From contig JAAVTG010000186.1 of NCBI GenBank assembly GCA_011947345.1, positions 49,731 through 113,730 on the forward strand: 64,000 nucleotides of DNA, in the 5' to 3' direction. Under the pieces are notes generated by a model, which made no database searches, was not told where the DNA came from, and saw only the letters and a program-made list of their open reading frames with translations. Position 1 is the stretch's first letter. The number at the start of each line of letters is the position of its first letter. The DNA comes from Phytophthora quininea. Lineage: Eukaryota > Oomycota > Peronosporomycetes > Peronosporales > Peronosporaceae. The translations under genes and the position numbers were made by a program. Shown here in pieces: positions 292 to 39,259 of the stretch.

Positions 292-292
292 C

Positions 293-17455: not shown

Positions 17456-17470
17456 TCTGATCCAGACACT

Positions 17471-17875: not shown

Positions 17876-18039
17876 TATCCCTGACGGCGTAGCGAGGAAT
17901 GAGGGGAGCCGGAAGGCTCAGACGATGAACTCTCGAAAGCAAATATGAAACTAACGCTACTCCTAAGACGTGTCCTTCGTTGGTTTCTTCTTCTTATCCC
18001 AAAAGCTATTTTCAACAGCTAACCGCCGTGAAAATAACC

Positions 18040-19916
18040 ATATCTTGGCATTCCGTTCGGCAATGGTGATACTTCAACATTGGTGGCGAATCAACTCGAC
18101 AAAAATTGATTAACCCTTTCGCGGACGGAGGTTAAGTGGCTTCAACTTTGGAAAGGCCGAGCGAGAACCCTAATCCGCCGAAGATTGATCGCCCAAGCAG
18201 AGATTTTGTCATTGCTGTGGTATTTCACAGCTTCGGTGACGATTCCAACCCGGTTCATCAAACGCTGGCAAGGCATTGTGAATCGGTACGTGTTATACAA
18301 CCGCGTAAGCACTGGGAAATCTGGGATAAGTATCGTTCAAAAGGCCTGGCTGTGAGGCCACGCGAACCAGACGGCATCGGGGTTCCTGATGTAGCTACTG
18401 TTATTCGTCGCCAGCACTTTCAACTCCTCCAGAACTTTGTATTAGCGATTACTACACACCCAGACGAAGATGACAACGTATGGTATCGCCCAATGCTCTA
18501 CATGATCCAATTACGCTATGGCAACTTCGCCCGCCCGCGATCGAGTGATTTCTTTCTTCAAAACCCACCGAAACCAGCGGGCTGGAGGTCGAGCATGCTA
18601 CCTTTGTGGTGGAGACACTTGCTACGTGAGTGGAACAGAATTAAATGGCCAGCCCCGGAGTCGATACACTACAACAGAAGAAAAACACTGCAGAAGGTGT
18701 TATTCACCCCAATTTGGTGGAGCAAGTTGCCTGGATTTCAGGTACTGGATACGCGAAGCCCAGCAAGTCCGGCGAAACCCCTGGGGTCAGGGTCAAACGC
18801 CTTTCGAGCGCTCTGTCGGGAACTGGCAAAACATAAAAAGTTATGTTTTGCCGACTTTCTGGGGCCAATCGAGACTGGCCGTCGTCAACGGCATTTTTCA
18901 CGGACGTCTGCTCCGAGATTCATCCAATACTTGGGACGAAAGTGCTTCCGCATGACATTTTCGTGCTCTACCATCAAATGAGCCGATTATTTCATCGCTT
19001 ACTACCGCACCCGGACGAAGGAGGAATGCAGGAAGTAACAAGTACGAATTCACCACCGATATTTGGAATCAAGCTAAGCAGCTGTCTCCCAACAGAACCA
19101 ACTACGCGATTCTTCCCAAATTTGCGATCGCAAGATTGGAAGGTGATTCTCCAGCAAGTTCCGGAGTTGATGCATTTGATGCATCATCCGATGGAAGGCC
19201 TGGGGTGTCCTCGACAAAGGATTCATGAAACCTTGTCCAGGGTGATTTCTCTACGTGGATATCTACTGCCGGTAATTCACGATGTGATAGTACGAATGTG
19301 CTTCGGAGACCTCACAGTCGGTTCACGACTGTACTTCCTCAGAGAACTAAATCCTACCATCCAAAACTGCGTTCGTCCGGAATGCCAGGATGTCGAAACG
19401 TAGAGCACCGTTTTTCACGTGCCCGTCATTAGAACCAATGTGGAGCGAACTATGGAGCCGATGGTCGAGGTTCTTTTGCGTCGATCTAAGCTGGAGGTTG
19501 CTACTCTTCTCAAGATTGCAAGACCTTCGTAGGAACTGGGGAAGTGAGCACAAAGAACTGATACTCCTATGGAGGATCTATACAGCGATAGTGTTTCACG
19601 CAACATGGCGGCTCAGGAACGACATTCATTGCCAGGAAACAACGGCTGAAGTGCCAAATATTCTCAATCTGCTGAACTCGTTCAAGATGCACTACCAATT
19701 CCTCTACCAACACGCACATGAGCTTCATTGCAACCGTGCTACTGTGGTCCGCGTGCTGCAAAAACTTGGCTTTGATCCGCCAGAAAATAATATCCCGGAG
19801 CCCATGCACCACATGTGGACGACACGACACGAACGTAACTCTCACGGATAGATAGCTTATCACCTTCAGACGAGAAATTCGCTAAACAGTTAATCAATTC
19901 AATTTCCCTCCTGTTG
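18040..19916 (+). mobile_element. LINE1 copy B (C-terminal region only)
   Basis: The plus-strand copy begins at the palindrome boundary, after the reverse transcriptase core (only the last residues, VANQLDKN, remain). It runs through the tryptophan-rich linker (18136-18981), the zf-RVT-type region (18843-19403) and the conserved end (19390-19851) into the 3' tail at about 19900. Frames are offset near 18840 and 19400, so it has no coding capacity for a full protein. Confidence 0.9.
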
Positions 19917-20144
19917 TCTGGCTGGAGAATTGCAAACTGACGGTCCTGGTCGCCATGTATTACGCGCAGTTTGCTGATTATGCGGTCTTGAAAGGGATGA
20001 GATTTTGTGTCGTCGTCAAACAGTAGAGCGAGCAGTAATTTTTACTGTGTGCTTAGAAGACCAAGATATGAATATGTCGTGGAATAGCGAATCGAGAGCG
20101 CGAAAATGTTTGTGAGCGTGTATTGTTAGGGAGATTCAAACCTT

Positions 20145-20164
20145 AGTTCATTTAGTTTAGCACC
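20145..20164. repeat. 20-bp motif shared with the end of RXLR gene 2
   Basis: AGTTCATTTAGTTTASCACC occurs here and at 6015-6034 with 19 of 20 bases identical, both times downstream of a minus-strand RXLR gene. The inverted arm carries it again near 34733-34752. It could be a conserved 3' UTR element or the end of a small insertion. Confidence 0.55.
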
Positions 20165-20288
20165 TATCGGTGACTGAAGGTATCATCCCTCTCTATCACT
20201 TAGATCAGGTACAAGCTGGTAGTTCCAACATGTATTCCATCGACGGCTGCATCCCCAACCAAGCCGCTAGAAATCCCTCAATGGACAA

Positions 20289-20738
20289 CTATCCCGCAGA
20301 GTTTTTCAGCTGTTTCAATGGGATTTTCTCGAGATCATGCATCAACCAGACATTGTATGTAGGTAGAAGTTTGCCCAAGAACTCGTCCAGTCTGTTTTCG
20401 AATCTCTCCAACGCGACTTTGTAAAACTTGTAGTCCTGGGCTTTCCTGGGCTTGGCACCAAACTTTTGTCCAGCTTTAAATCGCTCTTGATCCCGGAAGG
20501 GCTCCAAAGGTATGATTCCAGCGTCTCGTCCAATGTACTCCATTGGGCCGCTTCCGTGACCTTCTTGGCCTCGCTCATCCTTGTAGCAATTGACGAAACC
20601 AGGGGTGTTGCCTCTCTCTTCAAAGTCACTTCCACCAGCAAAGCCAGCACCAAGTCTCAACCCTCGTGCGGTGCTTTCGTCAGCGGTAGCGATGGCGACG
20701 AGACAGACGATTGCCAGCGCAACGTACTGCAAAAGCAT
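20289..20738 (-). pseudogene. RXLR effector gene 5 (left copy), offset frames
   Basis: The 149-residue frame has a signal peptide (1-19, MLLQYVALAIVCLVAIATA), RGLR at 25-28 and FEER at 39-42. After the EER the family-like helices (RMSEAKKVTEAAQW, SGIKSDLKLD) are in a different frame (20342-20653). The W-type end (YKFYKVALERF, YNVWLMHDLEKI) is back in the first frame. Two opposite frame changes about 140 bp apart therefore leave an open frame whose middle is out of register. It stops at KQLKNSAG, shorter than its paralogues. Confidence 0.75.
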
Positions 20739-20849
20739 GACCCGAATAATTAAAGTGACTTTGAAGTATGTTGTCGGGATGAATTGAGAATTGAGATAAG
20801 TTTGCCGTGAACTGGACGCCGCGGATAACCCGGTATGAGAGAATGGCAG

Positions 20850-20868
20850 ATAATCTGCCGCAGATTAT
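20850..20868. promoter_or_regulatory. Perfect 9-bp palindrome upstream of RXLR gene 5
   Basis: ATAATCTGC and GCAGATTAT flank one central base, 112-130 bp upstream of the RXLR gene 5 start and just beyond the 3' end of the transporter. The right arm has the same palindrome near 34027-34046. A binding site for a dimeric regulator is possible but not shown. Confidence 0.3.
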
Positions 20869-20919
20869 GCCCTGCTGCCAAGATAGGGGAAGTGTGATCC
20901 CACCGGCAAAGCACAAGGC

Positions 20920-22934
20920 TCATTGCGGGTATGTTGGACTGAGTGGTGCCTCAGTTCTTAATGACACCTGGCGAACCAGCGCTGACAGTGGCGATGAGCC
21001 GTACGTTGGCGACTGTCTCCACTGAATCGCACTGACCTCCGACCTGTTCAAACAAAGCACGCACATTGGTTACTCGAGACAATCAAAAACCAAAAGCAAA
21101 ATGGCAGGACGTACATATCTCCCGGTTCGGCATCCACAACTTCTTCACTACCGCTCTTCTCCACCGGCGGAATCATACCCAGCTGCATGTGATTCATCAC
21201 CACCACATAGAAAAAGATGTTCACCACCATGATGCCGCCCAGCGTGAAGAACATGTACTCGATGTGGCCGTCGTTCAAGTCGACGGGGATGTACTTGCCG
21301 AACAGCAGCACGATGACGGAGAGCAGCGTGCTGCCCATGGAGTTGGCAAAGAAACCGAGAGCGATCGACATGCTGCGCATGGTCGGAGGCACCTCCGAGT
21401 AGTTGATGTCGTACGACGGGATCACAATCAGCACGCCAGCTAAAGCCACCAGCAAATACTGCGGGATGGCAGTCCACCACGGGATCTCGTTCATCACCTG
21501 CCCGCCGTCGTCGTTGATCATGAACTGCGTCTCGCCGCTGGCGTCGACGTACGTGAGTGGGGAGGTGGTCTTCCGAACCATCTCGTAGACGCCTGTCCAC
21601 AGCATGGCGACCACCGCCACCCAGTAGCCGGCGAGCACTTTGCCGTAGTTACTCGGAGGCTTGCCCGCGTACTTTTCGTAGAGCGGATAGACCACTTTCT
21701 CGGTGAGAGGCACAAACAGCAGCACCGACAAGGGGTTGAACATCTGCACGGTGGGGCCGGGGATTTGGCTCCCGAGCGGGTCGCTGCCGAGGCGCGTGTC
21801 GGTCTGCTGCACGATGGACTGGTTGTTGCCGCGCTGGTTCTGGCACACCCACCAGACCACGCTGAATGCGTTGAAAGGAAGGATGCGGATCACTCGCTTG
21901 ACGCCGTTCACATGGTCCGAGTCGAAGCTGCCGCCCAACGTTTCCTTCGCACTCTCCATGAACGTGGCGTCGCGACCGAAGTACACCCAGAGCACTGTCG
22001 CGACGACGATCATGACCCCGCACGTGTACGAAATGTCGTGGCCGACGTCGCTCTGATCCGCCAACACCGACGCCAATACATTCAACACGAAGGACACGAC
22101 GTACAACCCCGTTCCGAGCAGAATCATCTTGGCGCTGAAGCTCTTCTTCGACTGAGCTGCCAGAATCCCTACCACCAGACCGATCGACTGCTTTGTCGGA
22201 GGCACGTTCATGTATCGCTCCCGAGAGAGCCACAGCAGCAGCACGAACAGCACCAGCATGATCAAACCGACGAGATAGACGCTGACGTAGCCGTAGTCGG
22301 CGGGGATGGCGGTACCCAGACCATGAATGGAGATGGTCGGGAACACTGCGTAGCCGAGGAAGGAGCCGACGTTAGAGACCCAGTACTGGATGCTGAAGAA
22401 GAGCGCCTTCTCGGACGGAGGAGCGGCGGGCGAAAACTGGTCGCCGCCGAACGAGATCACGAGCGAGCGCAGACAGACCTGCGAGACGGCGACCCCGAAG
22501 AACAGACCGACGTTGAACAGCAGCGTGCTCGCCGCCAAGTACCGGTTCATGACGGCGGGGAGCGCCGCCACCACGAGGAAGAGCAGGCCGACGCAGTCCA
22601 GTGAGGCGGCGGACAGCAGCGTCTTGAACTTGCCGAGCCGCTCGTCCGACAGGTAGCCGGCCACGACGCACGCGAACTGGCTGAACGAGTCGAACGTGAG
22701 CTTCATGGCGGTGGAGCCTTTGTTGGACCAGCCGAGCCGTGTGAAGAAGTCCTTGAGCGACTGCGCCACGGCGAAGCTCGCGACTTCCTCGCAGGCCGTG
22801 AGCACCAGCAGGAACGCGCAGACGTGTTTCAGCACGTTGCGGCGGTGGTTGGCTGGTCGAGCGTCCCAGAGTTGGGTGTCGACGGCGGCGACTTGCGGCT
22901 TGAGTAGCGGCTCTACGTCGAGGTGCTTGGTCAT
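20920..22934 (-). CDS. POT/PTR family proton-coupled transporter (left copy)
   Basis: Twelve or more hydrophobic segments and the POT family landmarks are present: the cytoplasmic YLSDERLGKFKT loop, LVISFGGDQF (residues 158-167) and the FFSIQYWVSNVGSFLG signature (179-194). Members import di- and tripeptides, nitrate or similar small solutes with protons across the plasma membrane; the substrate here is unknown. I read one intron of 71 bp at 21044-21114 (GTACGT..ACAG) near the 3' end, giving complement(join(20920..21043,21115..22934)), 647 residues. Without splicing, translation would stop at 21048 after a short nonsense tail. It is divergent from the dioxygenase gene across a 714-bp spacer. 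The copy in the right arm has one base fewer and is frameshifted. Confidence 0.9.
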
Positions 22935-23648
22935 GCTGCTGCGGCGTCAAGACGACTTTGTGGGAATGGCAGCGCCGTCGAGGTGCCTCGCGATCCACAT
23001 GAACTGCAAGCGAAAGATACTCCATCCCGTCGAAGTGTCAGATGTGCTCCCCGCGTCGATTGGCGGAACGCGGCGGCGATTTGCACCGGAGACCGAGGCG
23101 AGGCCGCAGCCCAAGGAGCCCCTGGAGAGGACCCCGGCCAGCGCAGTGCCGACGGACTGCCTTGCACGCGACTGCCTCGGGCGGATACTCGCGCGTGAAA
23201 TATTTTCCCTCGCCCGCCGGAACGCACGCGTCGGTGTCCGCGACGACAATTCGCTAGCTGTGCCCAAGTCACAGTGACGGGCGGGGCCGCGTCAGGCCAC
23301 CGGCACGGCTCGGACACGTTGAACCGGCCGAGCGGTCCCCGCAATTGGCTTGCAAGTCGATCCAATGGATCGGCACGGCGCCTCGATATCAGTGCTCGGG
23401 CGGATAATGCGCGTGTTGCCGCAAAGACATGGAGGGGCAGTGCAGCTTTGTCGGCGGGGATATTGAGGTCACGTACGTAGCATGTCGGGGCTGTCCGACT
23501 CCGAGCGCCTGTATGCGCGAAAGAATGCAGCAGCAGCAGCAGACCGCTGCAAGCGCCCGTACGTGGTCTGTGCAGCCGGGATGAAGACGCTAAGTCGCCG
23601 CGAACGTCACTCTGCGATTTCCTCACCACCGCCGACACCGACACCGAC
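22935..23648. promoter_or_regulatory. Divergent promoter between transporter and dioxygenase (left)
   Basis: A 714-bp GC-rich spacer separates the two start codons. Long open frames cross it in both directions, but they follow GC-rich codon bias and show no domains. Shared regulation of the pair is an inference from the layout and from their duplication as a unit. Confidence 0.4.
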
Positions 23649-24873
23649 ATGGCCCCGCAACACTCGACCGCCGCCGCCGCCCCGGCCAAGACGGTGCCCG
23701 TCGCCGTCAAGAACGCGCTGCTGCAGGAAATCACGCACAGCAAATTCGAGCACCTGGAGCTGCTGAGCGTGTACCCCAAGACCACGTTCGACCCGATCCC
23801 CGTGCTCGACGTCGGACCGGACCGCGCGCTCAAGGCCGACCCGACGCTCAAGAACCTGCTCGCGGACGCGGAGGTGACCCACTTGGCCCCAAAGATTGGC
23901 ACCGAGCTGTCGGGCATCCAGCTGCACCAGCTCACAGACGCCCAACGGGACGAGCTGGCGCTGCTGGTGGCGCGGCGCGGCGTGGTCTTCTTCCGCGACC
24001 AGCAGATCTCGATCGACCAGCAGCTGGAGCTGGGCCGCTACTACGGCCCGCTGCACGTGCATCAGAACCTGGGCCACCCGGAGGGCCGCACCGAGGTGCT
24101 GGTGGTGGAGAACTCGGTGGAGAAGAGCGCCGGGTTCCTCCAAAAGCAGATCTACGACCCGTTCAACGCCTGGCATAGCGACGTGTCCAACGAGCGCCAG
24201 CCGCCGTCGTACACGAGCTTCAAGGTGCTGACGACGCCCGAGGTGGGCGGCGACACGCTCTGGGCCTCGGCGTACGAGGCGTACGACCGACTCACGCCGC
24301 CGTTCAAGGAGTTCATTGCCGGACTCACGGCGATCCACACGGGCAAGGTGCGTTGGCTGTAGATGTGTGGAGCTGTCCTGCTTGTCAGGAGTTGCTAACT
24401 GACTGATGGTGCTGTGCTTCGTCTCAACAGCCTCAAGCCGAAGGAGCTGCCGCGAGCGGCCAGACGATTCGTCGTCCGCCGGTCGAGTTCGCCCACCCGG
24501 TGGTGCGCACCCACCCGGTCACCGGCCGCAGAGCGCTGTTCGTGAACCCCGCCTTCACCAAGCGCATCGTGGAGCTGTCCGTCGCCGAGTCTGGTGCGTG
24601 GGTTTGGTCCCGTGTTTAATGCTCACGATCGGTTGTCTAACTTGGTCGTTGACGTTGGCAGACGCTGTGCTGAGGTTCCTGTACCGCCATATCACGGAAG
24701 GCCACGAGTTCCAAGTGCGCTTCCGCTGGACAAAGAACGCCGTCGCGATTTGGGACAACCGCGCCACGTTCCACTACGCCACGTTCGACTACCTGCCGGG
24801 CAACAGGCACGCGGTGCGCGTGACGCCGCACGGTGGGATCCCGTACTTCGACCCGGACGCCGAGGCGAAGTAA
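23649..24873 (+). CDS. TauD-family Fe(II)/2-oxoglutarate dioxygenase (left copy)
   Basis: Three exons, join(23649..24347,24431..24593,24662..24873), give 357 residues; introns are 83 and 68 bp with GT..AG ends and both keep frame. The iron-binding HxD is His176-Ser-Asp178 in AWHSDVS. The distal His is His325 in [12 protein letters not shown]. An Arg at 336-340 (GNRHAVRV) fits the 2-oxoglutarate carboxylate site. The block [13 protein letters not shown] (about 109-121) and [10 protein letters not shown] are typical of taurine/alkylsulfonate dioxygenases. The likely reaction is oxygen-dependent hydroxylation of a small sulfonate or related compound; the substrate is not determined. Divergent pairing with a solute transporter suggests uptake plus catabolism. 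Confidence 0.92.
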
Positions 24874-25193
24874 GAGAAGATGTTACGAAATGCGAGGAGT
24901 TTTCTGGCAGGCTGGATGCAAGAATTGATCAGCTTTCTTTCAGCTAAATCTCTGCCGCTTTGGCACCAAGCAAATGCAAACGAGATGACTGGCGTGCTGG
25001 ATTTCTTCGCCCGTAAACCGAGCAGGACCGCCTGCATAGTGTTGCTGACAACTCCTTAGAAAGCATGACAAGAGCACTGCCCTAGCAGATCGTGATATGG
25101 CTTCTATTACTGCATGATCACGGGACGCCGAAAACCAGCCGCCGTTAATCGCCGCTGTTTTCTTCAGTCTTGATTAATCGCCGCAGCCCAGAG

Positions 25194-26451
25194 ATGTCCG
25201 ACGCCGCGTTCCTGGCCGAGGTGGAAGACTTCCTGACGTCCTGCGACCTGCCGCTCTGCCCACCTGCCCAATTGCTGCGCAATGAAGACGGCAACAGTAA
25301 CATGACCTCCGGCTCTCCAACCATTCCAACCCCTCTAACCTCACCCACCAAGCCTGCTCTGAACGTGAAAACTCTCGCTCCAAGCCCAAGAAGCAGACTC
25401 TGGATACTGCTACCAAGCGAGAGCTTGAGAAGGCCAAGGACCGTAAGAGACGCAGGGCCTATCGAGAACGGCAGCGTTTAGAGCGAGATGTTTTGAAGCT
25501 GCAGGTGGAGGAGTTATCCTCGACATTGACGGAGCTACAGGAGACTAAACTTGAATCGGGACAGACGTCGCCGTCAGTGTGGCAAGCCATTGCCTCGAGA
25601 CAGTTGCAGGCTCGCTTGGATGCGGAGACCGAGCAGCAGAATTTAGTCGCTGCAGTCGACGCACGTGCCGCGATGATTCAAGAGTTCACGAGTTTCGTGC
25701 AGGATCGATTGTCGTTCAAAAGTGAAGTGGTTGAGGAGGAGTTGGAAGACACAGGTCCCAAACCCAAGAGAATGCGGCTTGAGTCTTCAGACGAAGGTTT
25801 TTTAAGATCCTTCTACAAGAGTTAGACGCGGTCTACAGACAGACCGACGAGATTTTGAAGGCGAGTGGCTTGGACACTACGGAGGTTGATTGGGACGGTT
25901 CCGGTCAGAAGTGGAGAGAAGACAGCGACACTGGGTATTACCAATACCTGGACAAGTTGGTGCTGACCCACGGCTTCCAACAGACTTGTGATTCTCTCTG
26001 GAAGGTTGCTCACATGCCTCACCGCCAGGAAAGTCGGCAAGCATTCGACAAAGTCGAGGACCCGGAAAGCACGACGGCGTACAAGTTTCGTGTAACCACG
26101 CGACTGAAATCCGGTCGAGCTGTGTCAATTCTGCAGCGCTCTGCTACTCGTCGCTACAGACAGGATGGCTGTGAGGTGTTTGTATGGCGAGCATTTACAG
26201 AAGGGGAGGGATTGTTCACGGGCATGCATGCGGATGAGACTGGCTGGGTGGTGGCGATCCCGTTGACGAATATGTCTACGGAACGAACGCTGATGCGGAT
26301 CTGCATTCACCACACGCCAATGCACTTCAGCAATGTGGAGACGCGTGAACCCGACATAAAGCAGTTCACTGGAGTCCTTCTTGATGAAGCGAACAAGGAT
26401 GGCACCGAGACGACGAGCGGACTGAAGAAAATGCTTCTTGAGGCTTCGTAG
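25194..26451 (+). pseudogene. bZIP transcription factor gene 1 (two frameshifts)
   Basis: The start MSDAAFLAEVEDFLTSCDLP matches the N terminus of the intact paralogue at 28445. The frame shifts between about 25330 and 25390, before a basic region (AKDRKRRRAYRERQRLERD) and leucine zipper (LKLQVEELSSTLTELQ). It shifts again at a run of T at about 25798-25803, one base short. The C-terminal domain of about 200 residues then follows (26451 stop), with the family blocks GFQQTCDSLWKVAHMPHRQ, GEGLFTGMHADETGW and HHTPMHF. It is the inverted partner of the bZIP gene at 27192-28445. If the T-run loss is a consensus error only one lesion remains. Confidence 0.85.
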
Positions 26452-26603
26452 ATATTATCTAGCTGGCCTATAAAATCGAAGTGGATGAATACATTTGAAA
26501 TCAATTTGTGTGGTATTCAATGCCCGACAGCGACCACGGACGCATTGCAGCAGATCGCATTCCGAATTTCATACTACATTACAGTTTTTTTCTTTTTTTT
26601 TTC

Positions 26604-27086
26604 GGACAACGAAATGGCGCCGCCTTCCTAGCTGAAGTAGAGAATTTCCTGGCGCCCTTCGATCTCCTTTGCTCTTACCCACGCCGACCACGATCAAAAC
26701 AGCGGCCGACCAACTTCGAATTCGGTTCCGACCCCAAGATGAAGAAGAAGGTGCGGGGCAGGGTTTACTCCATTGCCAAGTGAGAACTTGGGAAAGCCAA
26801 GGGCCGTAAAAGACGCGAGTATCGAGAGCGGTGACGTGTTGAACGGGAGCCTTTGAAGCAGCAGGTGGAGGATCTGTCGTTGAAAGTAAAGGCACTAAAG
26901 AAGTCCATGGTGGTGCTTTCGAAATGGAGGGAAATTGCAAGGAGGCAATTGCAGGCTCGAGCTCGTGCGGAGATGGAGCATCGGCGTCTTGTTGCTGCAG
27001 TTGACACCCGAGCAGCGATGATCCAACATTTCAAGAGTTTTGTGCAGCGTCGCCTATTGGAGGTACGAGTTGCAAGTGCAAAATGA
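26604..27086 (+). pseudogene. bZIP gene fragment 2 at the palindrome centre
   Basis: The N-terminal block AFLAEVENFLAPFDLL (about 26610), a shortened basic region (RKRREYRER) with stops, and the coiled region VEREPLKQQVEDLSLKVKALKK to VAAVDTRAAMIQHFKSFVQRRL are recognisable. The whole C-terminal domain is missing. It lies between bZIP genes 1 and 3, tandem to gene 1, and ends in AT-rich DNA. It is a third, truncated paralogue. Confidence 0.8.
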
Positions 27087-27191
27087 TGAAGCTAGAAGAG
27101 CTCTCCGCAGGCCGTCGCTGTGGACTTAGTGATAAAATGATGTTGGCACTAAAAAAGAATTCTTGATTTTGATATCTTATAGCATTTTTGT

Positions 27192-28445
27192 CTACCCGTC
27201 AAGTCCCAATTGTTTCAATCCGCTCGTAATTTCAACACCATCTTTGCTGACTGCATCCAGAATGACACCCGTGAATTGTTTCACATCTGCCTCACGTATA
27301 GCCGCATGACTGAAGTGCATCGGTGTGTGGTGAATACAAGTCCGCACGAGAGTTCTCTCCGTCGACGTTTCCATCAACGGAGTCGCCACCACCCACCCAG
27401 TTTCATCTGTATGCATACCCGTGAACAATCCTTCTCCTTCCGTAAATGATCTCCACACCGTCACCTCTCGGTCATTTCGTTTGTAGCGACGCGTAGCGGC
27501 ACGCTGTAAAATGGACACGGCTCGACCCGACTTCAACTGAGTTGTTACGCGGAACTTGTACGCTGCAGTGTTTTCTGGATCTTCGACCTTATCGAAAGCT
27601 CGTCGACCTTCCTGGCGGTGGGGCATGTGAGCCATTTTCCAGAGGGTGCCACAAGTCTGCTGCAGGCCGAGGGGAATCACGTATTTGTCCCGAAAGACAA
27701 AATCACCCGATCTGCCGCCTTCTCTCCATTGCGGCTTGGAACCATCCCAATCTTCTTCAGTCGAGCCCAAGCCACACGCTTGCATAACATCATCTGCTTG
27801 ATCGCGAAACGCGTCCAGCTCCTGGAGAAAAACATCGAAGAAATCTTCATCTGAAGGCTCCAGCCGCATTCGCTTGGTCTTGGAACCTGTATCTCCCAAA
27901 TCACCCTCCGCCAGCTTCATTTCGCTGGATAGATGGCCTTTCACAAAACGTGTAAATTCCTGAATCATCAACGCTCGAGCGTCCACCGCAGCAACCAAAT
28001 ACCGCTGCTCCGTCTCCGCACTCACTCGGGCCTGCAATTGCCTCGTGCCAATGGCTTTCCACACTGACGCGCGTCCGGGGTCATCCTGTAGCTCCGTCAA
28101 CTTCGAAGATAATTCCTCCACCTGCAGCGTCAGAGTCTCCCGCTCAACACGCCGTCGTTCTCGGTAGGCGCTGCGTCTCTTACGATCCTTTGCCTTCTCG
28201 CGTTCTCTCTTGGCAACCGCATCTAGCTTTGGTTCGGTCTTTTTCTTGGATTTGGACGGCGGTGGTGCTGCAGCAGTGTCCTGCAATTGCGACGACTTGG
28301 CGGTGTTGGTAGGCGCGTCGACAGTGGCGTGAAAGTTTTTGTTGTCTTCGTCTTCGTCGTCGTGCAACGTTTGAAGGAGAGGCAGGTCGCAGGATGTCAA
28401 GAAATCCTCCACCTCAGCCAGGAACGTGGCGTCGGACGTTGCCAT
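27192..28445 (-). CDS. bZIP transcription factor 3, intact
   Basis: A 417-residue protein from the Met at 28445 (an extra Met at 28454 adds three residues). An N-terminal ATFLAEVEDFLTSCDLP motif is followed by a Lys/Arg-rich linker. The basic region at about 81-100 (AKDRKRRSAYRERRRVERE) and a leucine zipper (LTLQVEELSSKLTEL) come next. Residues about 200-417 form a conserved domain of unknown function that recurs in all full-length paralogues here (LQQTCGTLWKMAHMPHRQ, SFTEGEGLFTGM, HHTPMHF). Aligned to the bZIP consensus N-x2-[AS]-A-x2-[SC]-R, the invariant Asn is Lys and the Ser/Cys is Glu, so DNA specificity may differ from known bZIPs. It would act in the nucleus. A transposable element with terminal repeats sits 36 bp upstream of the start. 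Confidence 0.9.
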   Translation of the reverse strand: MATSDATFLAEVEDFLTSCDLPLLQTLHDDEDEDNKNFHATVDAPTNTAKSSQLQDTAAAPPPSKSKKKTEPKLDAVAKREREKAKDRKRRSAYRERRRVERETLTLQVEELSSKLTELQDDPGRASVWKAIGTRQLQARVSAETEQRYLVAAVDARALMIQEFTRFVKGHLSSEMKLAEGDLGDTGSKTKRMRLEPSDEDFFDVFLQELDAFRDQADDVMQACGLGSTEEDWDGSKPQWREGGRSGDFVFRDKYVIPLGLQQTCGTLWKMAHMPHRQEGRRAFDKVEDPENTAAYKFRVTTQLKSGRAVSILQRAATRRYKRNDREVTVWRSFTEGEGLFTGMHTDETGWVVATPLMETSTERTLVRTCIHHTPMHFSHAAIREADVKQFTGVILDAVSKDGVEITSGLKQLGLDG

Positions 28446-28514
28446 CTTCGACAATTATCTGCAGTGCGCAAGCAGAAGGAGGAGGAATTTCCATAACCAA
28501 GTGGAATTCCACTT

Positions 28515-29390
28515 GCTTGTTCCAAAGCGTGTGTAGAGACTGAGCCCACTCTCTTTGTGCGTATATGTTTGCAACTAGTTGGTCGGTCATAAGACTTGGA
28601 CAGAAAGTGGCGAGAAAACCATAGCATTTGGCAAGAAAATCATGACTTATTGACAGAAAAATCTACTACCATCACGACAATCGGAGATGAAATCATGGAA
28701 AATGGAAATGTGTATTTTGATTAAAGGAGCAACATATCCACTTGCTGGTTCGTCGCCTCCACTTCTACTTCTTGCTCCCTTTCGTGTTACATCGTTTATG
28801 CTTCTCTTTGGGTCCTGGTTTTTCTCCTCGTGAGCCTTTTTCCTCGGCGAAGTCGGAACGACAGACATGCGGCAGGACGTATCGACTGTAAGCGTAGAAT
28901 CAATCGGAAAGGGTACAAACTTCAGCGTGTATGTGTGTAGTGCGTCCACGGTAGACGAACGTTGACACAGTGTTTGGGAAGCTGGCACTTCCGAATGTTG
29001 TACTTGCCGAGTGTATTGCTTAGATGAAAGCAAAAAGGAAAGTGTCTAAACTACCCCGGCAACTCGCCACTGCGAGCAGCACACCATGGAGCCCATGGTG
29101 TGTCTTCGAGTTTAACTGCAACTGCAAGTTGGTACCAGCTGATAAGGACTGCAACCGCATTCCTTCATCGAAGTGTAACGAGGGCAAGGCTTTCAACCTG
29201 AACCCCGCGCTACAATGTGTCTCGAAAGTGTTGGAGCGAAAGTCGGTCGGCATCGTAAAGGTTAGCAATTGGAGTTCCATCTTGAATTGCAGCCGCCGCA
29301 GCGTGTACGCATGAAAAGAATGGCACAACAACTAGTTTTCTGTGTAGTAGTAACGTGTCAACGTCCAGCTATAATTAGTGAACCTCACCA
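28515..29390. other. Interior of the TIR element without a recognised gene
   Basis: Open frames at 28647-29033 (minus) and 29024-29314 (plus) overlap end to end but show no motif I recognise. I call no gene here. Confidence 0.4.
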
Positions 29391-29690
29391 CTACATGCTG
29401 ACGAAAGTTCTGAGCCCAAGTTGAGCTGCAGCAGCCTGCGCTTCCACCGTTTTCCACTGTTCAAGCGACAGCTTGAGCTTCTTGCGCGAGCGATAGTTCT
29501 TGCTCGCGAGACGAGCTCTCGCCCTGCGATCGGCTTCACGAGAAGTTTCGACCTCGGCACCACACGGGAACACGCGCTGAAGGTGCTTCCGTAGTCCTGC
29601 AGGCGTTTTCAAAACACGTTGACACCGGAAGCACTTTCTCGGGCGGCCACGCTTCCTGGGGACGCGCATCTTCGACTTGACCTTCACCAT
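29391..29690 (-). CDS. Small AT-hook and C2HC zinc-finger protein in the TIR element
   Basis: From the Met at 29690 the product has 99 residues. It opens with a very basic stretch containing an AT-hook core (RKRGRPRK). It continues with a single finger CFRCQRVLKTPAGLRKHLQRVFPC, that is Cys-x2-Cys and His-x5-Cys, and ends in a basic Arg/Lys helix (ASKNYRSRKKLKLSLEQW). Both parts suggest DNA binding. A longer frame to 29801 exists but this start precedes the basic region directly. The location inside a terminal-repeat element suggests an element-encoded protein, possibly binding its ends; this is inference. Confidence 0.5.
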   Translation of the reverse strand: MVKVKSKMRVPRKRGRPRKCFRCQRVLKTPAGLRKHLQRVFPCGAEVETSREADRRARARLASKNYRSRKKLKLSLEQWKTVEAQAAAAQLGLRTFVSM

Positions 29691-29965
29691 TGAGCTTGGA
29701 GATTCGACACTGAAGAAGGAAAAAGTAAGAAAATACCCGTCCCAGCCCACCCACTTATGGACATCATCGCGCGTTTTCTTAGCTACAACGACCAGATCCA
29801 CTTGCTTATGAAAATCGTCACTGCTGGAGGTAAGAGTAAGTGGAATTCCACTTGGTTATGGAAATTCCTCCAGAAGGAGTGGCGGCGATGTGAGGTGAAT
29901 GATGCTCGGGCGTCCCGTGATCACGGATTACCTGTCTTGTCGCAGTCTCTTCTTAGAAATGTTTG

Positions 29966-31247
29966 CTAAGATCGAGACAGCAGCTGTATTTTGACGGTGG
30001 TGAAGTCTTCTCTCCGTGTGTCTTGCTTCACCTCGGCATCCGGGTCGAAGTACGGGATCTCGCCGTGCGGCGTCACGCGCACCGCGTGCCTGTTGCCCGG
30101 CAGGTAGTCGAACGTGGCGTAGTGGAACGTGGCGCGGTTGTCCCAAATCGCGACGGCGTTCTTTGTCCAGCGGAAGCGCACTTGGAACTCGTGGCCTTCC
30201 GTGATATGGCGGTACAGGAACCTCAGCACAGCGTCTGCCAACGTCAACGACCAAGTTAGACAACCGATCGTGAGCATTAAACACGGAACCAAACCCACGC
30301 ACCAGACTCGGCGACGGACAGCTCCACGATGCGCTTGGTGAAGGCGGGGTTCACGAACAGCGCTCTGCGGCCGGTGACCGGGTGGGTGCGCACCACCGGG
30401 TGGGCGAACTCGACCGGCGGACGACGAATCGTCTGGCCGCTCGCGGCAGCTCCTTCGGCTTGAGGCTGTTGAGACGAAGCACAGCACCATCAGTCAGTTA
30501 GCAACTCCTGACAAGCAGGACAGCTCCACACATCTACAGCCAACGCACCTTGCCCGTGTGGATCGCCGTGAGTCCGGCAATGAACTCCTTGAACGGCGGC
30601 GTGAGTCGGTCGTACGCCTCGTACGCCGAGGCCCAGAGCGTGTCGCCGCCCACCTCGGGCGTCGTCAGCACCTTGAAGCTCGTGTACGACGGCGGCTGGC
30701 GCTCGTTGGACACGTCGCTATGCCAGGCGTTGAACGGGTCGTAGATCTGCTTTTGGAGGAACCCGGCGCTCTTCTCCACCGAGTTCTCCACCACCAGCAC
30801 CTCGGTGCGGCCCTCCGGGTGGCCCAGGTTCTGATGCACGTGCAGCGGGCCGTAGTAGCGGCCCAGCTCCAGCTGCTGGTCGATCGAGATCTGCTGGTCG
30901 CGGAAGAAGACCACGCCGCGCCGCGCCACCAGCAGCGCCAGCTCGTCCCGTTGGGCGTCTGTGAGCTGGTGCAGCTGGATGCCCGACAGCTCGGTGCCAA
31001 TCTTTGGGGCCAAGTGGGTCACCTCCGCGTCCGCGAGCAGGTTCTTGAGCGTCGGGTCGGCCTTGAGCGCGCGGTCCGGTCCGACGTCGAGCACGGGGAT
31101 CGGGTCGAACGTGGTCTTGGGGTACACGCTCAGCAGCTCCAGGTGCTCGAATTTGCTGTGCGTGATTTCCTGCAGCAGCGCGTTCTTGACGGCGACGGGC
31201 ACCGTCTTGGCCGGGGCGGCGGCGGCGGTCGAGTGTTGCGGGGCCAT
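29966..31247 (-). CDS. TauD-family dioxygenase (right copy, stop lost)
   Basis: Inverted copy of the gene at 23649-24873: complement(join(29966..30234,30303..30465,30549..31247)). HxD, distal His, Arg and both introns are kept. Around the 3' end, five transitions separate it from the left copy. One changes Gly to Glu in PHGGIPYF and one turns the TAA stop into CAA, so translation would continue 19 residues into unrelated sequence (total 376). Function is as for the left copy. The changed Gly lies close to the active-site Arg, so activity may be affected. It is divergent from the right transporter copy. Confidence 0.85.
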
Positions 31248-31962
31248 GTCGGTGTCGGTGTCGGCGGTGGTGAGGAAATCGCAGAGTGACGTTCGCGGCG
31301 ACTTAGCGTCTTCATCCCGGCTGCACAGACCACGTACGGGCGCTTGCAGCGGTCTGCTGCTGCTGCTGCATTCTTTCGCGCATACAGGCGCTCGGAGTCG
31401 GACAGCCCCGACATGCTACGTACGTGACCTCAATATCCCCGCCGACAAAGCTGCACTGCCCCTCCATGTCTTTGCGGCAACACGCGCATTATCCGCCCGA
31501 GCACTGATATCGAGGCGCCGTGCCGATCCATTGGATCGACTTGCAAGCCAATTGCGGGGACCGCTCGGCCGGTTCAACGTGTCCGAGCCGTGCCGGTGGC
31601 CTGACGCGGCCCCGCCCGTCACTGTGACTTGGGCACAGCTAGCGAATTGTCGTCGCGGACACCGACGCGTGCGTTCCGGCGGGCGAGGGGAAAATATTTC
31701 ACGCGCGAGTATCCGCCCGAGGCAGTCGCGTGCAAGGCAGTCCGTCGGCACTGCGCTGGCCGGGGTCCTCTCCAGGGGCTCCTTGGGCTGCGGCCTCGCC
31801 TCGGTCTCCGGTGCAAATCGCCGCCGCGTTCCGCCAATCGACGCGGGGAGCACATCTGACACTTCGACGGGATGGAGTATCTTTCGCTTGCAGTTCATGT
31901 GGATCGCGAGGCACCTCGACGGCGCTGCCATTCCCACAAAGTCGTCTTGACGCCGCAGCAGC
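31248..31962. promoter_or_regulatory. Divergent promoter between dioxygenase and transporter (right)
   Basis: Inverted copy of the 22935-23648 spacer, nearly identical, with a local indel near 31680-31695. It lies between the two start codons. Confidence 0.4.
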
Positions 31963-33976
31963 ATGACCAAGCACCTCGACGTAGAGCCGCTACTCAAGCC
32001 GCAAGTCGCCGCCGTCGACACCCAACTCTGGGACGCTCGACCAGCCAACCACCGCCGCAACGTGCTGAAACACGTCTGCGCGTTCCTGCTGGTGCTCACG
32101 GCCTGCGAGGAAGTCGCGAGCTTCGCCGTGGCGCAGTCGCTCAAGGACTTCTTCACACGGCTCGGCTGGTCCAACAAAGGCTCCACCGCCATGAAGCTCA
32201 CGTTCGACTCGTTCAGCCAGTTCGCGTGCGTCGTGGCCGGCTACCTGTCGGACGAGCGGCTCGGCAAGTTCAAGACGCTGCTGTCCGCCGCCTCACTGGA
32301 CTGCGTCGGCCTGCTCTTCCTCGTGGTGGCGGCGCTCCCCGCCGTCATGAACCGGTACTTGGCGGCGAGCACGCTGCTGTTCAACGTCGGTCTGTTCTTC
32401 GGGGTCGCCGTCTCGCAGGTCTGTCTGCGCTCGCTCGTGATCTCGTTCGGCGGCGACCAGTTTTCGCCCGCCGCTCCTCCGTCCGAGAAGGCGCTCTTCT
32501 TCAGCATCCAGTACTGGGTCTCTAACGTCGGCTCCTTCCTCGGCTACGCAGTGTTCCCGACCATCTCCATTCATGGTCTGGGTACCGCCATCCCCGCCGA
32601 CTACGGCTACGTCAGCGTCTATCTCGTCGGTTTGATCATGCTGGTGCTGTTCGTGCTGCTGCTGTGGCTCTCTCGGGAGCGATACATGAACGTGCCTCCG
32701 ACAAAGCAGTCGATCGGTCTGGTGGTAGGGATTCTGGCAGCTCAGTCGAAGAAGAGCTTCAGCGCCAAGATGATTCTGCTCGGAACGGGGTTGTACGTCG
32801 TGTCCTTCGTGTTGAATGTATTGGCGTCGGTGTTGGCGGATCAGAGCGACGTCGGCCACGACATTTCGTACACGTGCGGGGTCATGATCGTCGTCGCGAC
32901 AGTGCTCTGGGTGTACTTCGGTCGCGACGCCACGTTCATGGAGAGTGCGAAGGAAACGTTGGGCGGCAGCTTCGACTCGGACCATGTGAACGGCGTCAAG
33001 CGAGTGATCCGCATCCTTCCTTTCAACGCATTCAGCGTGGTCTGGTGGGTGTGCCAGAACCAGCGCGGCAACAACCAGTCCATCGTGCAGCAGACCGACA
33101 CGCGCCTCGGCAGCGACCCGCTCGGGAGCCAAATCCCCGGCCCCACCGTGCAGATGTTCAACCCCTTGTCGGTGCTGCTGTTTGTGCCTCTCACCGAGAA
33201 AGTGGTCTATCCGCTCTACGAAAAGTACGCGGGCAAGCCTCCGAGTAACTACGGCAAAGTGCTCGCCGGCTACTGGGTGGCGGTGGTCGCCATGCTGTGG
33301 ACAGGCGTCTACGAGATGGTTCGGAAGACCACCTCCCCACTCACGTACGTCGACGCCAGCGGCGAGACGCAGTTCATGATCAACGACGACGGCGGGCAGG
33401 TGATGAACGAGATCCCGTGGTGGACTGCCATCCCGCAGTATTTGCTGGTGGCTTTAGCTGGCGTGCTGATTGTGATCCCGTCGTACGACATCAACTACTC
33501 GGAGGTGCCTCCGACCATGCGCAGCATGTCGATCGCTCTCGGTTTCTTTGCCAACTCCATGGGCAGCACGCTGCTCTCCGTCATCGTGCTGCTGTTCGGC
33601 AAGTACATCCCCGTCGACTTGAACGACGGCCACATCGAGTACATGTTCTTCACGCTGGGCGGCATCATGGTGGTGAACATCTTTTCTATGTGGTGGTGAT
33701 GAATCACATGCAGCTGGGTATGATTCCGCCGGTGGAGAAGAGCGGTAGTGAAGAAGTTGTGGATGCCGAACCGGGAGATATGTACGTCCTGCCATTTTGC
33801 TTTTGGTTTTTGATTGTCTCGAGTAACCAATGTGCGTGCTTTGTTTGAACAGGTCGGAGGTCAGTGCGATTCAGTGGAGACAGTCGCCAACGTACGGCTC
33901 ATCGCCACTGTCAGCGCTGGTTCGCCAGGTGTCATTAAGAACTGAGGCACCACTCAGTCCAACATACCCGCAATGA
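31963..33976 (+). pseudogene. POT/PTR family transporter (right copy, frameshift)
   Basis: Identical in layout to the left copy: the YLSDERLGKFKT loop, GGDQF and FFSIQYWVSNVGSFLG are kept. The last hydrophobic segment is broken by one missing T at 33682-33685, where four T stand against five in the left copy. The protein would end after 578 residues (33699) instead of 647. The intron at 33782-33852 and second exon to 33976 remain. Because the change is a homopolymer indel, it may be a consensus error, in which case both copies are functional. Confidence 0.8.
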
Positions 33977-34157
33977 GCCTTGTGCTTTGCCGGTGGGATC
34001 ACACTTCCCCTATCTTGGCAGCAGGGCATAATCTGCGGCAGATTATCTGCCATTCTCTCATACCGGGTTATCCGCGGCGTCCAGTTCACGGCAAACTTAT
34101 CTCAATTCTCAATTCATCCCGACAACATACTTCAAAGTCACTTTAATTATTCGGGTC

Positions 34158-34606
34158 ATGCTTTTGCAGTACGTTGCGCTGGCAATCGTCTGTCTCGTCG
34201 CCATCGCTACCGCTGACGAAAGCACCGCACGAGGGTTGAGACTTGGTGCTGGCTTTGCTGGTGGAAGTGACTTTGAAGAGAGAGGCAACACCCCTGGTTT
34301 CGTCAATTGCTACAAGGATGAGCGAGGCCAAGAAGGTCACGGAAGCGGCCCAATGGAGTACATTGGACGAGACGCTGGAATCATACCTTTGAGCCCTTCC
34401 GGGATCAAGAGCGATTTAAAGCTGGACAAAAGTTTGGTGCCAAGCCCAGGAAAGCCCAGGACTACAAGTTTTACAAAGTCGCGTTGGAGAGATTCGAAAA
34501 CAGACTGGACGAGTTCTTGGGCAAACTTCTACCTACATACAATGTCTGGTTGATGCATGATCTCGAGAAAATCCCATTGAAACAGCTGAAAAACTCTGCG
34601 GGATAG
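34158..34606 (+). pseudogene. RXLR effector gene 5 (right copy, extra frameshift)
   Basis: Copy of the gene at 20289-20738. Signal peptide, RGLR (25-28) and FEER (39-42) are unchanged. One base is missing near 34390 relative to the left copy (one G fewer in CCTTTGGAG), so the frame leaves the C-terminal W-type region and ends at 34553 rather than 34606. The two copies therefore encode different C termini. The shared upstream frame offset shows that decay began before the duplication or homogenisation. Confidence 0.75.
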
Positions 34607-34983
34607 TTGTCCATTGAGGGATTTCTAGCGGCTTGGTTGGGGATGCAGCCGTCGATGGAATACATGTTGGAACTACCAGCTTGTACCTGATCTAAGTGAT
34701 AGAGAGGGATGATACCTTCAGTCACCGATAGGTGCTAAACTAAATGAACTAAGGTTTGAATCTCCCTAACAATACACGCTCACAAACATTTTCGCGCTCT
34801 CGATTCGCTATTCCCACGACATATTCATATCTTGGTCTTCTAAGCACACAGTAAAAATTACTGCTCGCTCTACTGTTTGACGACGACACAAAATCTCATC
34901 CCTTTCAAGACCGCATAATCAGCAAACTGCGCGTAATACATGGCGACCAGGACCGTCAGTTTGCAATTCTCCAGCCAACAGGA

Positions 34984-37975
34984 GGGAAATTGAATTGATT
35001 AACTGTTTAGCGAATTTCTCGTCTGAAGGTGATAAGCTATCTATCCGTGAGAGTTACGTTCGTGTCGTGTCGTCCACATGTGGTGCATGGGCTCCGGGAT
35101 ATTATTTTCTGGCGGATCAAAGCCAAGTTTTTGCAGCACGCGGACCACAGTAGCACGGTTGCAATGAAGCTCATGTGCGTGTTGGTAGAGGAATTGGTAG
35201 TGCATCTTGAACGAGTTCAGCAGATTGAGAATATTTGGCACTTCAGCCGTTGTTTCCTGGCAATGAATGTCGTTCCTGAGCCGCCATGTTGCGTGAAACA
35301 CTATCGCTGTATAGATCCTCCATAGGAGTATCAGTTCTTTGTGCTCACTTCCCAGTTCCTACGAAGGTCTTGCAATCTTGAGAAGAGTAGCAACCTCCAG
35401 CTTAGATCGACGCAAAAGAACCTCGACCATCGGCTCCATAGTTCGCTCCACATTGGTTCTAATGACGGGCACGTGAAAAACGGTGCTCTACGTTTCGACA
35501 TCCTGGCATTCCGGACGAACGCAGTTTTGGATGGTAGGATTTAGTTCTCTGAGGAAGTACAGTCGTGAACCGACTGTGAGGTCTCCGAAGCACATTCGTA
35601 CTATCACATCATGAATTACCGGCAGTAGATATCCACGTAGAGAAATCACCCTGGACAAGGTTTCATGAATCCTTTGTCGAGGACACCCCAGGCCTTCCAT
35701 CGGATGATGCATCAAATGCATCAACTCCGGAACTTGCTGGAGAATCACCTTCCAATCTTGCGATCGCAAATTTGGGAAGAATCGCGTAGTTGGTTCTGTT
35801 GGGAGACAGCTGCTTAGCTTGATTCCAAATATCGGTGGTGAATTCGTACTTGTTACTTCCTGCATTCCTCCTTCGTCCGGGTGCGGTAGTAAGCGATGAA
35901 ATAATCGGCTCATTTGATGGTAGAGCACGAAAATGTCATGCGGAAGCACTTTCGTCCCAAGTATTGGATGAATCTCGGAGCAGACGTCCGTGAAAAATGC
36001 CGTTGACGACGGCCAGTCTCGATTGGCCCCCAGAAAGTCGGCAAAACATAACTTTTTATGTTTTGCCAGTTCCCGACAGAGCGCTCGAAAGGCGTTTGAC
36101 CCTGACCCCAGGGGTTTCGCCGGACTTGCTGGGCTTCGCGTATCCAGTACCTGAAATCCAGGCAACTTGCTCCACCAAATTGGGGTGAATAACACCTTCT
36201 GCAGTGTTTTTCTTCTGTTGTAGTGTATCGACTCCGGGGCTGGCCATTTAATTCTGTTCCACTCACGTAGCAAGTGTCTCCACCACAAAGGTAGCATGCT
36301 CGACCTCCAGCCCGCTGGTTTCGGTGGGTTTTGAAGAAAGAAATCACTCGATCGCGGGCGGGCGAAGTTGCCATAGCGTAATTGGATCATGTAGAGCATT
36401 GGGCGATACCATACGTTGTCATCTTCGTCTGGGTGTGTAGTAATCGCTAATACAAAGTTCTGGAGGAGTTGAAAGTGCTGGCGACGAATAACAGTAGCTA
36501 CATCAGGAACCCCGATGCCGTCTGGTTCGCGTGGCCTCACAGCCAGGCCTTTTGAACGATACTTATCCCAGATTTTCCAGCGCTTACGCGGTTGTATAAC
36601 ACGTACCGATTCACAATGCCTTGCCAGCGTTTAATGAACCGGGTCGGAATCGTCACCGAAGCTGTGAAATACCACAGCAATGACAAAATCTCTGCTTGGG
36701 CGATCAATCTTCGGCGGATTAGGGTTCTCGCTCGGCCTTTCCAAAGTTGAAGCCACTTAACCTCCGTCCGCGAAAGGGTTAATCAATTTTTGTCGAGTTG
36801 ATTCGCCACCAATGTTGAAGTATCACCATTGCCGAACGGAATGCCAAGATATCGCACGGTTTCGCCGCGCTTCAGTGATTTTAGCGGTGACACTCGCGGA
36901 GCAGAACGCTTACTGTTGAGACTCATTATGACACTTTTGTTATGGTTCAGCCGAGCTCCAGATCCCCACAATAGTCATCAACAATTTGAAGCTGCTCTCT
37001 AGCTCCTCTTTCCTTTTGAGGAAAGCCCAGTGTCGTCGGCAAAGAACCCCACTGGGGCGCGTAATGTTTGGCCCACCAAGACATCTAAATCTCTTTGAGC
37101 GCGTAACAAATTTCCTAGTGGTTCCAACGAGAGAGCAAACAGATACGGAGACAATGGATCTCCCTGTTTCACTCCTCGAGTTGGTGTCAGCGAGTCCTGC
37201 GCCCATCCGTCGATCCTTAATGAACATTTCGAGTCGTCGTACAATAGACGTGTCCACGCCAAAAATCGAGGCCCAAATCCTTGTCGTTCCAAAACTCGAA
37301 GGAGGTACGGACGACTAACGCGGTCGTAAGCCTTAGCGAAGTCCAAGAACGTGGCTAGTCCTGTGCGTTTTGGAATGTTTCTAAGTGCTGGAGATCGCGG
37401 ACTAGCATTAGCTGCTGGTCAATCCGACGCCCCGGTATAAAACCCTTTTGATCCGGATGCACCAACTTAGAAATGTGTGGTCTAAGACGATTCACTAATA
37501 CTGGCGATAATATCTTGACCTCAACGGGCATCAGTGTGATCGGCCGGAAGTTTCCCGGTTCAGATCGGTCTCCTTTTTTAAACAGTAGTACCACGGAGGA
37601 ATATCGCTGATGTGGAAGTAAACTTCCACGTTCCAATTGATATCCAAAACTATCGCAAGTATTTCTCCAAACGCGCCCGGATCTAGACGAAAACAATCAC
37701 TGGTGAGGCCGTCTGGACCCGGTGCTGAGTGAGGTTTCAGTTTCCTGATCGCAAAGGCAAACTCCTCTGCGGCCAACTCGCTGTCAAGATCCTTGGTCAC
37801 CTCTGAGGATAGTCGGCGCTCGATGCTATCAAGCAAGGTTTGTTGAGACGCCATGTCAATCTCTCGTTCTTCAGCTGGGAAGTGAGGGTCGCCGAATATT
37901 TTCCCCAATGCTCTCGAAGGCCATGACAGCTTTCAGTAGGATCGGTTGATTCTTCACCAGCAGAAGTTCGTATCG
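34984..37975 (-). mobile_element. LINE1 copy C (longest copy, about 3.0 kb)
   Basis: Minus-strand element with the 3' tail at 34984, the C-terminal region (35488-36540), then the reverse transcriptase in pieces: 36783-36971 and 36999-37346 (MDFAKAYDRVSR, GVKQGDPLSPYLFAL, FFADDT), 37355-37696 (LLFKKGDRSEPGNFRPITLM, HPDQKGFIPGRRI) and 37531-37908 (SAPGPDGLTSDCF). The endonuclease domain expected upstream is missing; the copy ends near 37975 where the next RXLR locus begins. Small frameshifts separate the pieces. Its part from 34984 to 36852 belongs to the palindrome arm. Confidence 0.9.
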
Positions 37976-38182
37976 ATCTAAATGGAGTGTTTTGAAGTTC
38001 GTATCGTGGCGGCCGAAAGAAGAACTTGGTACTTTTTCAGCTGCAGTCACGGTTTATTCAAAGCCCCGATTCCATCCAAAGGTATCCCATTCATCATGAC
38101 ATTCTTTGTATCGTTGTGTGGCGAAATAGTAGTTAACTTCTCCAGCCAGACAACAGAAGCAGCCGTTCTTCCGAACACAATC

Positions 38183-38929: not shown

Positions 38930-39259
38930 TGAGCAATTCAAGGACAAACGTTGATTATTTTCTGTGAGCCGACTTCCAAGTCTTCGCGTCGGTGGTTTGA
39001 ATAAGCCTTCCATGCTCTATTGGTGGCAGCAGTCTTATGTTTGCACCGATCGATATTACGACCCAACTTTCGCCTGCTAGTGCAGGGCGTCGACCGTCGA
39101 CATCGACTGTGCACCGGTTGGGCCAGTTCCCGTTTAAAAAGCTACATTCGCGCGGAAAAATAAACTTCAGACCATCTTGGCGCCAACCCTGCATATGTTT
39201 CCCAAGTGTTCTGCTTCCACCATCATATCCCTCGCTCTCATTCCTCAACTGCCAGTCAA
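38930..39259. promoter_or_regulatory. Intergenic region and leader of bZIP gene 4
   Basis: No gene seen. The last 115 bp (about 39145-39259) are repeated downstream of bZIP gene 4 at 40535-40660, including the stretches CATATGTTTCCC and TCCCTCGCTCTCATTCCTCA. The region presumably holds the bZIP 4 promoter and 5' UTR. Confidence 0.45.

Follow-up and report, generated by a model that had tools for sequence, protein, structure and literature searches.

Gene-bearing palindrome in two haplotypes of a Phytophthora genome, with arms most likely homogenised by arm-to-arm gene conversion

Arm-to-arm gene conversion is established in the palindromes of mammalian sex chromosomes; those of the human Y and primate X chromosomes are gene-bearing, have inverted arms >99% identical around a spacer and are maintained by conversion (PMC8981503). 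In the palindromes of the willow W chromosome, the arms are reported to be converted in parts, and differences between lineages that were concordant between arms were taken as evidence of conversion (PMC7023750). The locus described here is a palindrome of the same kind in the oomycete Phytophthora quininea (assembly of 87 Mb, 993 contigs). It lies in a 64,000-nt stretch (the window) of contig C137 (C137:49731-113730), and each arm carries a POT/PTR2-family transporter gene and a divergent TauD/TfdA-type dioxygenase gene (POT and TauD below). The between-lineage, between-arm test used in willow was applied. Unlike the mammalian palindromes, this one occurs in oomycete haplotypes, has arms of 4–7 kb, shows no sign of GC-biased conversion and has no known sex linkage; unlike the willow palindromes, which belong to a plant sex-determining region (~200 kb), it is a small gene-pair palindrome.

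Conversion-maintained palindromes are already known, and this locus adds an oomycete case, of which none turned up in the literature searched. Among the literature matches listed, judged by titles and abstract openings and with limited coverage of subscription journals, none reported arm-to-arm conversion in oomycetes; some of the matches dealt with mitotic recombination and loss of heterozygosity in Phytophthora. In the accessible text of a chromosome-scale study of Phytophthora infestans, gene conversion comes up once, in the discussion, and no word starts with palindrom (PMC9584435).

The palindrome is real. In a BLASTN comparison of the window with itself, 18040-24875 matched 36852-30021 in inverted orientation at 99.69% identity over 6839 columns, with 11 mismatches and 7 gap openings (window coordinates are used throughout, negative positions being C137 sequence left of the window; features are listed in Table 1). 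This is the alignment that a preliminary description of the window had called for, and its near-perfect arms (18040-24876 and 30020-36852) were confirmed with the inner edge off by one base. From outside to inside, each arm contained part of a LINE (long interspersed nuclear element)-like repeat, a segment with an RxLR-EER-like secreted open reading frame (ORF), the POT gene and the TauD gene. The spacer held inverted bZIP genes 1 and 3, a bZIP fragment on the plus strand and an element with terminal inverted repeats (TIRs).

When the assembly was searched at the DNA level, contig C649 emerged as carrying a second locus (96% identity). Blocks collinear with this contig ran the length of C137, with rearranged or unmatched stretches in between: the left end of C137 matched C649 46908-62317 at 97.2%, window 42627-48893 matched C649 at 96.9%, and the right end of C137 matched C649 130292-136334 at 96.0%. 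The contigs are most simply taken as two diverged haplotypes (alleles or homeologs). C649 carried the same palindrome, its arms at 92020-96002 and 103761-99775 being 99.77% identical. The inner edges corresponded between the haplotypes (24875 to 96002 and 30021 to 99774/5), and this use of the same bases argues against two independent duplications. Arms compared between contigs were 96.6-96.8% identical (~3.3% difference between haplotypes). The arms extended 3.99 kb in C649 and 6.8 kb in C137, which reached 2.9 kb further.

The left and right arms of both contigs were aligned over window 20920-24875. Gapped columns were left out here and in the bZIP counts below. Of 3947 gap-free columns, 3855 were invariant and 92 variable, the latter being classed as concerted (haplotypes differ, arms agree), arm-shared (left arms differ from right arms), crossed or single. 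Concerted columns made up 78 of the 92; the other 14 were single, with 0 arm-shared and 0 crossed. Indels of 22, 12 and 6 bp in the arms likewise tracked the haplotype. The POT-TauD intergenic region was concerted too (6, 8 and 11 sites in 250-bp bins from 22920 to 23669), which indicated that the identity does not come from protein constraint.

The bZIP pair in the core had the opposite pattern: 306 columns were arm-shared and 0 concerted, with 74 other and 848 the same. Because the site patterns were opposite, the core behaves as two old genes and the arms of each haplotype as a single sequence. Like the known conversion-maintained palindromes, the locus had arms ≥99% identical, the same inner edges in a second lineage, lineage differences concordant between arms, and a spacer that was not concerted. 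It thereby provides a clear natural experiment on gene conversion away from the usual sex-chromosome context, with the bZIP core as an internal control.

The POT-TauD arms show concerted evolution, for which arm-to-arm gene conversion is the most likely explanation. Very probably, an old inverted duplication predates the split of the haplotypes, and conversion between arms has kept the POT-TauD arms nearly identical in each haplotype, the core and flanks diverging. The preliminary description had proposed recent homogenisation inside an older inverted duplication, and the site patterns in C649 strongly support this. The duplication would have set two divergent POT-TauD pairs face to face around a bZIP core. 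Recombinational repair in which each arm serves as template for the other would then homogenise the arms, through gene conversion within the chromosome or possibly break-induced copying; the core bZIPs, being presumably too different for homologous pairing, would diverge, as would the flanks. Keeping both gene copies alike may be the benefit.

The bZIP genes gave a measure of age. Genes 1 and 3 had been described as a diverged inverted pair, and their 71.3% identity in a full alignment bore this out. Outside the arms, an outer inverted bZIP pair (39431-40501 and -17356 to -18430) was 82.8% identical. A tree was built from 44 rows, comprising 36 database proteins (those of 331-479 aa among 42 retrieved homologs) and eight from this genome. 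The core copies (C137 1 and 3, C649 1) formed a 100/100 clade and the outer copies a separate 100/100 clade. In the outer clade, the first right copy of C649 fell with the left copies of the two haplotypes (96/98), apart from the remaining right copies. The core pair had a synonymous divergence (dS) of 1.37-1.68, and the outer pair, taken with the C137 right copy, one of 0.41-0.43; the C649 outer left copy gave 0.44 against the second right copy of C649, the frame of which is partly shifted. Rows with shifted frames (C137 core 3 with C649 core 3; C137 outer right with C649 second outer right) were dropped. For POT, dS was 0.002-0.007 between arms and 0.036-0.043 between haplotypes.

At least three age classes were therefore present: the core bZIPs (dS ~1.4), the outer bZIPs (~0.43) and the POT arms (<0.01). 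The two ages proposed earlier were too few, and the differing arm extents of the haplotypes did not fit them either. Identity along the palindrome measures the time since the last copying, not since duplication, and in genomes of this sort a pair of near-identical genes is not necessarily the product of a recent duplication. An early change of frame was present in core copy 1 of both haplotypes, with another in C137 only, and core copy 3 was open in C137 and disrupted in C649; sequencing error is possible in both cases. The assignment to the bZIP family is provisional: the core and outer genes tested gave no match to the Pfam bZIP domain, but several of their homologs bear the name BZIP domain-containing or M96 mating-specific family.

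At the inner edges of the arms, homology stopped within a few bases of the TauD stop codon in both haplotypes. Seven of the 14 single sites lay ≤100 bp from either tract end (P 2e-6, with the limit chosen after looking). Five of the 14 were private to the C137 right arm, four of these in the final 42 bases of the tract, and one such change altered the TauD stop codon, so that the frame continues. The single differences probably cluster at the ends because conversion weakens as homology runs out and selection preserves the coding part. The edge at the stop codon may be the remnant of a repeat that once reached further. The 15-bp match reported beyond the dioxygenase ends proved genuine when its alignment score was compared with 1000 dinucleotide shuffles (score 30, shuffle maximum 29). 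In C649 it was part of an alignment 42 columns long, which scored 42 where 1000 shuffles reached at most 28 and which stopped on each side ~40-45 bp away from the bZIP homology; this is consistent with a formerly longer repeat. Symmetric gene order, the position of the edge in both haplotypes and this upstream match favour, but do not establish, that TauD and bZIP were duplicated together, as the earlier proposal of a single old event for both genes has it.

It is possible, if somewhat doubtful, that separate inversion events were involved and that POT-TauD was duplicated later around an existing bZIP cluster. The core bZIP dS of 1.4-1.7 exceeds the outer value of ~0.43, as such a history would allow, and a study of the expanded bZIP family in Phytophthora sojae reports clusters of bZIP genes formed by local duplication, as is likely for those here; its main text has 0 occurrences each of 'inverted' and 'gene conversion' (PMC4046829). 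However, an inner edge at the TauD stop codon fits the erosion of a longer, older repeat and not a random breakpoint, and the homology upstream of the bZIP genes extends towards TauD.

A further proposal keeps the old inverted duplication and explains the arms by a single long copying event per haplotype (break-induced replication across the whole arm). Substitutions in C137 were similarly few in the outer 2.9 kb (5/2874) and the inner part (6/3947), and the outer part of the arm was palindromic in C137 only; both speak for it. We think it somewhat unlikely, given that the single differences were spread unevenly, half of them near the tract ends, and that the same bias in two neighbouring inverted repeats suggests a continuing process. 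The second inverted repeat (52659-59244) had arms 99.2-99.7% alike in C137 and 96.9-97.9% alike in C649. Its part 52659-53508/56827-57679 had 26 concerted and 4 arm-shared sites, and its part 54860-55863/58241-59244 had 44 and 0.

An artefact of assembly or polishing, whether from collapse or misjoining of the arms or from a consensus that made them alike, is very improbable: inverted repeats are error-prone and several frames differed by single-base indels, but C137 and C649 are separate contigs that each contain the structure, with collinear sequence to its left and right, the arms retained their own private differences and indels, and the 78 haplotype-fixed sites and concordant indels in both arms are unexpected from polishing. 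Least credible of all is recent re-duplication, in which the two haplotypes each acquired their second POT-TauD copy on their own and no old inverted pair of these genes existed; near identity within each haplotype would suit it, but the inner edges, orientation and spacer were the same in both, so that two events must have hit the same bases on both sides, and C649 keeps on the right side of its arms a diverged adjacent segment (91% to its left copy), which indicates that the inverted partner predates the arm identity.

Several observations weigh against recurrent conversion after a single founding duplication. Recurrent short tracts and one whole-arm replacement per haplotype lead to identical site patterns. 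The threefold dS gap between core and outer bZIPs is not predicted by one founding event without further conversion, and the 4 arm-shared sites in one part of the second inverted repeat mark less complete homogenisation. Two of the 14 single columns (24405 and 24406) adjoin an indel in a short repeat and depend on the alignment. The comparison covered two haplotypes of one genome, in assembled contigs alone. GC-biased substitution was not seen in the arms, where 40 coding sites comprised 12 AT-to-GC and 19 GC-to-AT changes, 3 neutral and 6 unpolarised.

GC-biased substitution is a reported property of primate palindrome arms and is not required for conversion. GC content at third codon positions was 0.85 for POT, like the paralog on contig C614 (0.84-0.86) and above two others (0.73-0.82); for TauD it was 0.94, above the paralog pieces (0.65-0.92). 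GC-biased conversion was set aside as unsupported, the POT value being no higher than that of its closest paralog and the polarised changes showing no GC excess.

In C137, one copying event, probably from left to right, would have overrun the older arm end and given the right arm its RxLR-like segment and LINE-like sequence. The outer 1.87 kb of each arm belonged to a repeat also found at 9222-11629, the copy there having a reverse-transcriptase domain at 11023-11682. Because the LINE-like repeat adjoined the arms only on the left in C649, the simplest reading of the right copy in C137 is that it was gained by copying from the left once the haplotypes had split. The RxLR-like segments of the two C137 arms had 0 mismatches in 500 aligned columns and one 1-base gap. 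Over 320 common columns, the C137 segment was 93.4% identical to the C649 left copy and 90.9% to the right copy; informative sites among the four copies grouped C137 with C649 left at 17, C137 with C649 right at 9 and the two C649 copies at 11. This also points weakly to left-to-right copying, as judged from these few sites. Earlier figures of 93.5 and 89.2%, taken over unequal columns, overstated that signal and were replaced. The C649 left segment (C649:91506-91862) was inverted relative to its C137 counterpart (20262-20763) and was without ~140 bp that in C137 lie between 14-bp inverted repeats (20618-20631/20753-20766).

Inverted gene pairs might act in both of the highly diverged haplotypes as standing templates for repair that keep copies of metabolic genes alike, the copying of which overshoots and reshuffles adjacent RxLR-like effector and transposon segments. 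This is a tentative and rather improbable generalisation, built on two cases: the ~2.9 kb gained by the C137 right arm and the grouping of the first right outer bZIP of C649 with the left copies. The locus suggests that inverted repeats may drive the turnover of nearby fast-evolving segments.

The outer boundary of the arms in C137 was not upheld as their ancestral end, the outer 2.9 kb being palindromic in C137 only. A second reason to drop 18040/36852 lies at its left edge: a LINE-like copy appears to be split between -8003 and 18040, with a 2-base overlap, and 18040 probably represents a later insertion junction. The sequence from -9233 to -8003 matched 38075-36848 in inverted orientation at 99.1%, and other copies of the repeat were equally similar, so that the split is likely rather than certain. 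The intervening block of 26 kb was repeat-rich, with DIRS-like frames (by eye); no significant match was found between its outer 3-kb ends that would represent terminal repeats. It spans 1-18039 and runs leftwards to C137 position 41728, contains RxLR-like ORFs and a LINE-like copy, and has a retroelement RNase H and integrase region at 760-2522. In C649, 77443-91158 consisted of three tandem units of ~4.63 kb (LINE-like repeat and adjacent segment) that were 99.3% alike; C137 has similar material, but dispersed and partly inverted.

Absence of the TIR element from C649 indicates that it was most likely inserted after the haplotype split. Its target-site duplication was AGAAGGA or AGAAGGAG, with an empty site in C649. 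The element itself was as the preliminary description had supposed; without it, however, the two intergenic halves measured 320 and 192 bp, for which 'nearly equal' is generous.

The arm genes passed the Pfam cut-offs of 27 bits, with 144.6 bits for POT (PF00854) and 120.2 and 53.9 bits for the two TauD pieces (PF02668). A 1-base length difference near the end of the right POT copy gave open frames of 582 (right) and 632 (left) residues, stop to stop. The closest protein relatives came from Phytophthora and allied oomycetes, with identities of up to 74% for the transporter (in Phytophthora), ~80% for the dioxygenase and ~50% for full-length bZIP. The divergent POT-TauD order was also found elsewhere in the genome, on contigs C614, C25 and C757. 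In other species, POT and TauD matches lay on contigs of equal size (e.g., 6665 in P. palmivora, 59256 in P. lilii and 16220 in Globisporangium polare), and those of P. idaei bore the neighbouring tags PI124_g6395 and g6396; the pair thus appears to be linked in several other oomycetes. By family names, its putative role would be uptake and oxidation of taurine or another sulfonate. At C614, C25 and C757 a tandem TauD pair was 76% identical in each, without homogenisation, which is one contrast and not a general rule. At this locus C614 and C25 differed by 3.7%, similar to the divergence between C137 and C649. Between the C25 and C757 stretches identity was 99.83%, and both matched C614 at 96.3%; they represent a third copy or a duplicated haplotig.

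Table 1. Features of the palindrome and its surroundings in window coordinates
Feature	Position	Strand	Basis or remark
Left arm, C137 extent	18040..24875	+	99.69% inverted match to 30021-36852
Right arm, C137 extent	30021..36852	-	inverted BLASTN match to left arm
Left arm, inner part, palindromic in both haplotypes	20920..24875	+	matches C649:92020-96002; 78 haplotype-fixed columns, 0 arm-specific
Right arm, inner part, palindromic in both haplotypes	30021..33976	-	matches C649:99775-103761
Inner homology edge at TauD stop codon, shared by the two haplotypes	24871..24875	.	edge alignment
POT/PTR2-family transporter gene, left copy	21048..22931	-	PF00854, E 5.2e-42
POT/PTR2-family transporter gene, right copy	31966..33848	+	shorter open frame than left copy
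TauD/TfdA-type dioxygenase gene, left copy, one inferred intron between two exons	23649..24873	+	PF02668 in both pieces; stop codon at inner arm edge
TauD/TfdA-type dioxygenase gene, right copy, altered stop codon	29966..31247	-	open frame continues to 29966; frame reading and edge alignment
Core bZIP gene 1, frame disrupted in C137	25196..26451 (start approximate)	+	alignment, tree
Core bZIP fragment 2	26773..27044	+	between genes 1 and 3
Core bZIP gene 3, open frame in C137	27192..28445	-	alignment, tree
Outer bZIP, right	39164..40450	+	older inverted partner C137:31300-32374 (window -18430 to -17356)
15-bp remnant match upstream of bZIP 1	25115..25129	+	0 of 1000 shuffles reach score
15-bp remnant match upstream of bZIP 3	29909..29923	-	same alignment test
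TIR element	28481..29871	.	TIRs of 37 bp; target-site duplication of 7-8 bp; not present in C649
LINE-like repeat part, left arm, cut at 18040	18040..19914	+	BLASTN self-match
LINE-like repeat, right side, arm identity ending inside at 36852	34978..38075	-	BLASTN self-match
RxLR-EER-like secreted ORF segment, left arm	20262..20762	.	motif read by eye; right copy 34134-34634

The second inverted repeat included an ORF at 52816-53490 and kinase-like genes. Kinase-like genes with apparent secreted ectodomains formed a cluster at 44554-61400, arranged in tandem and inverted and 71-77% alike in pieces, in which the Pfam kinase domain was confirmed for 44554-46359 only.

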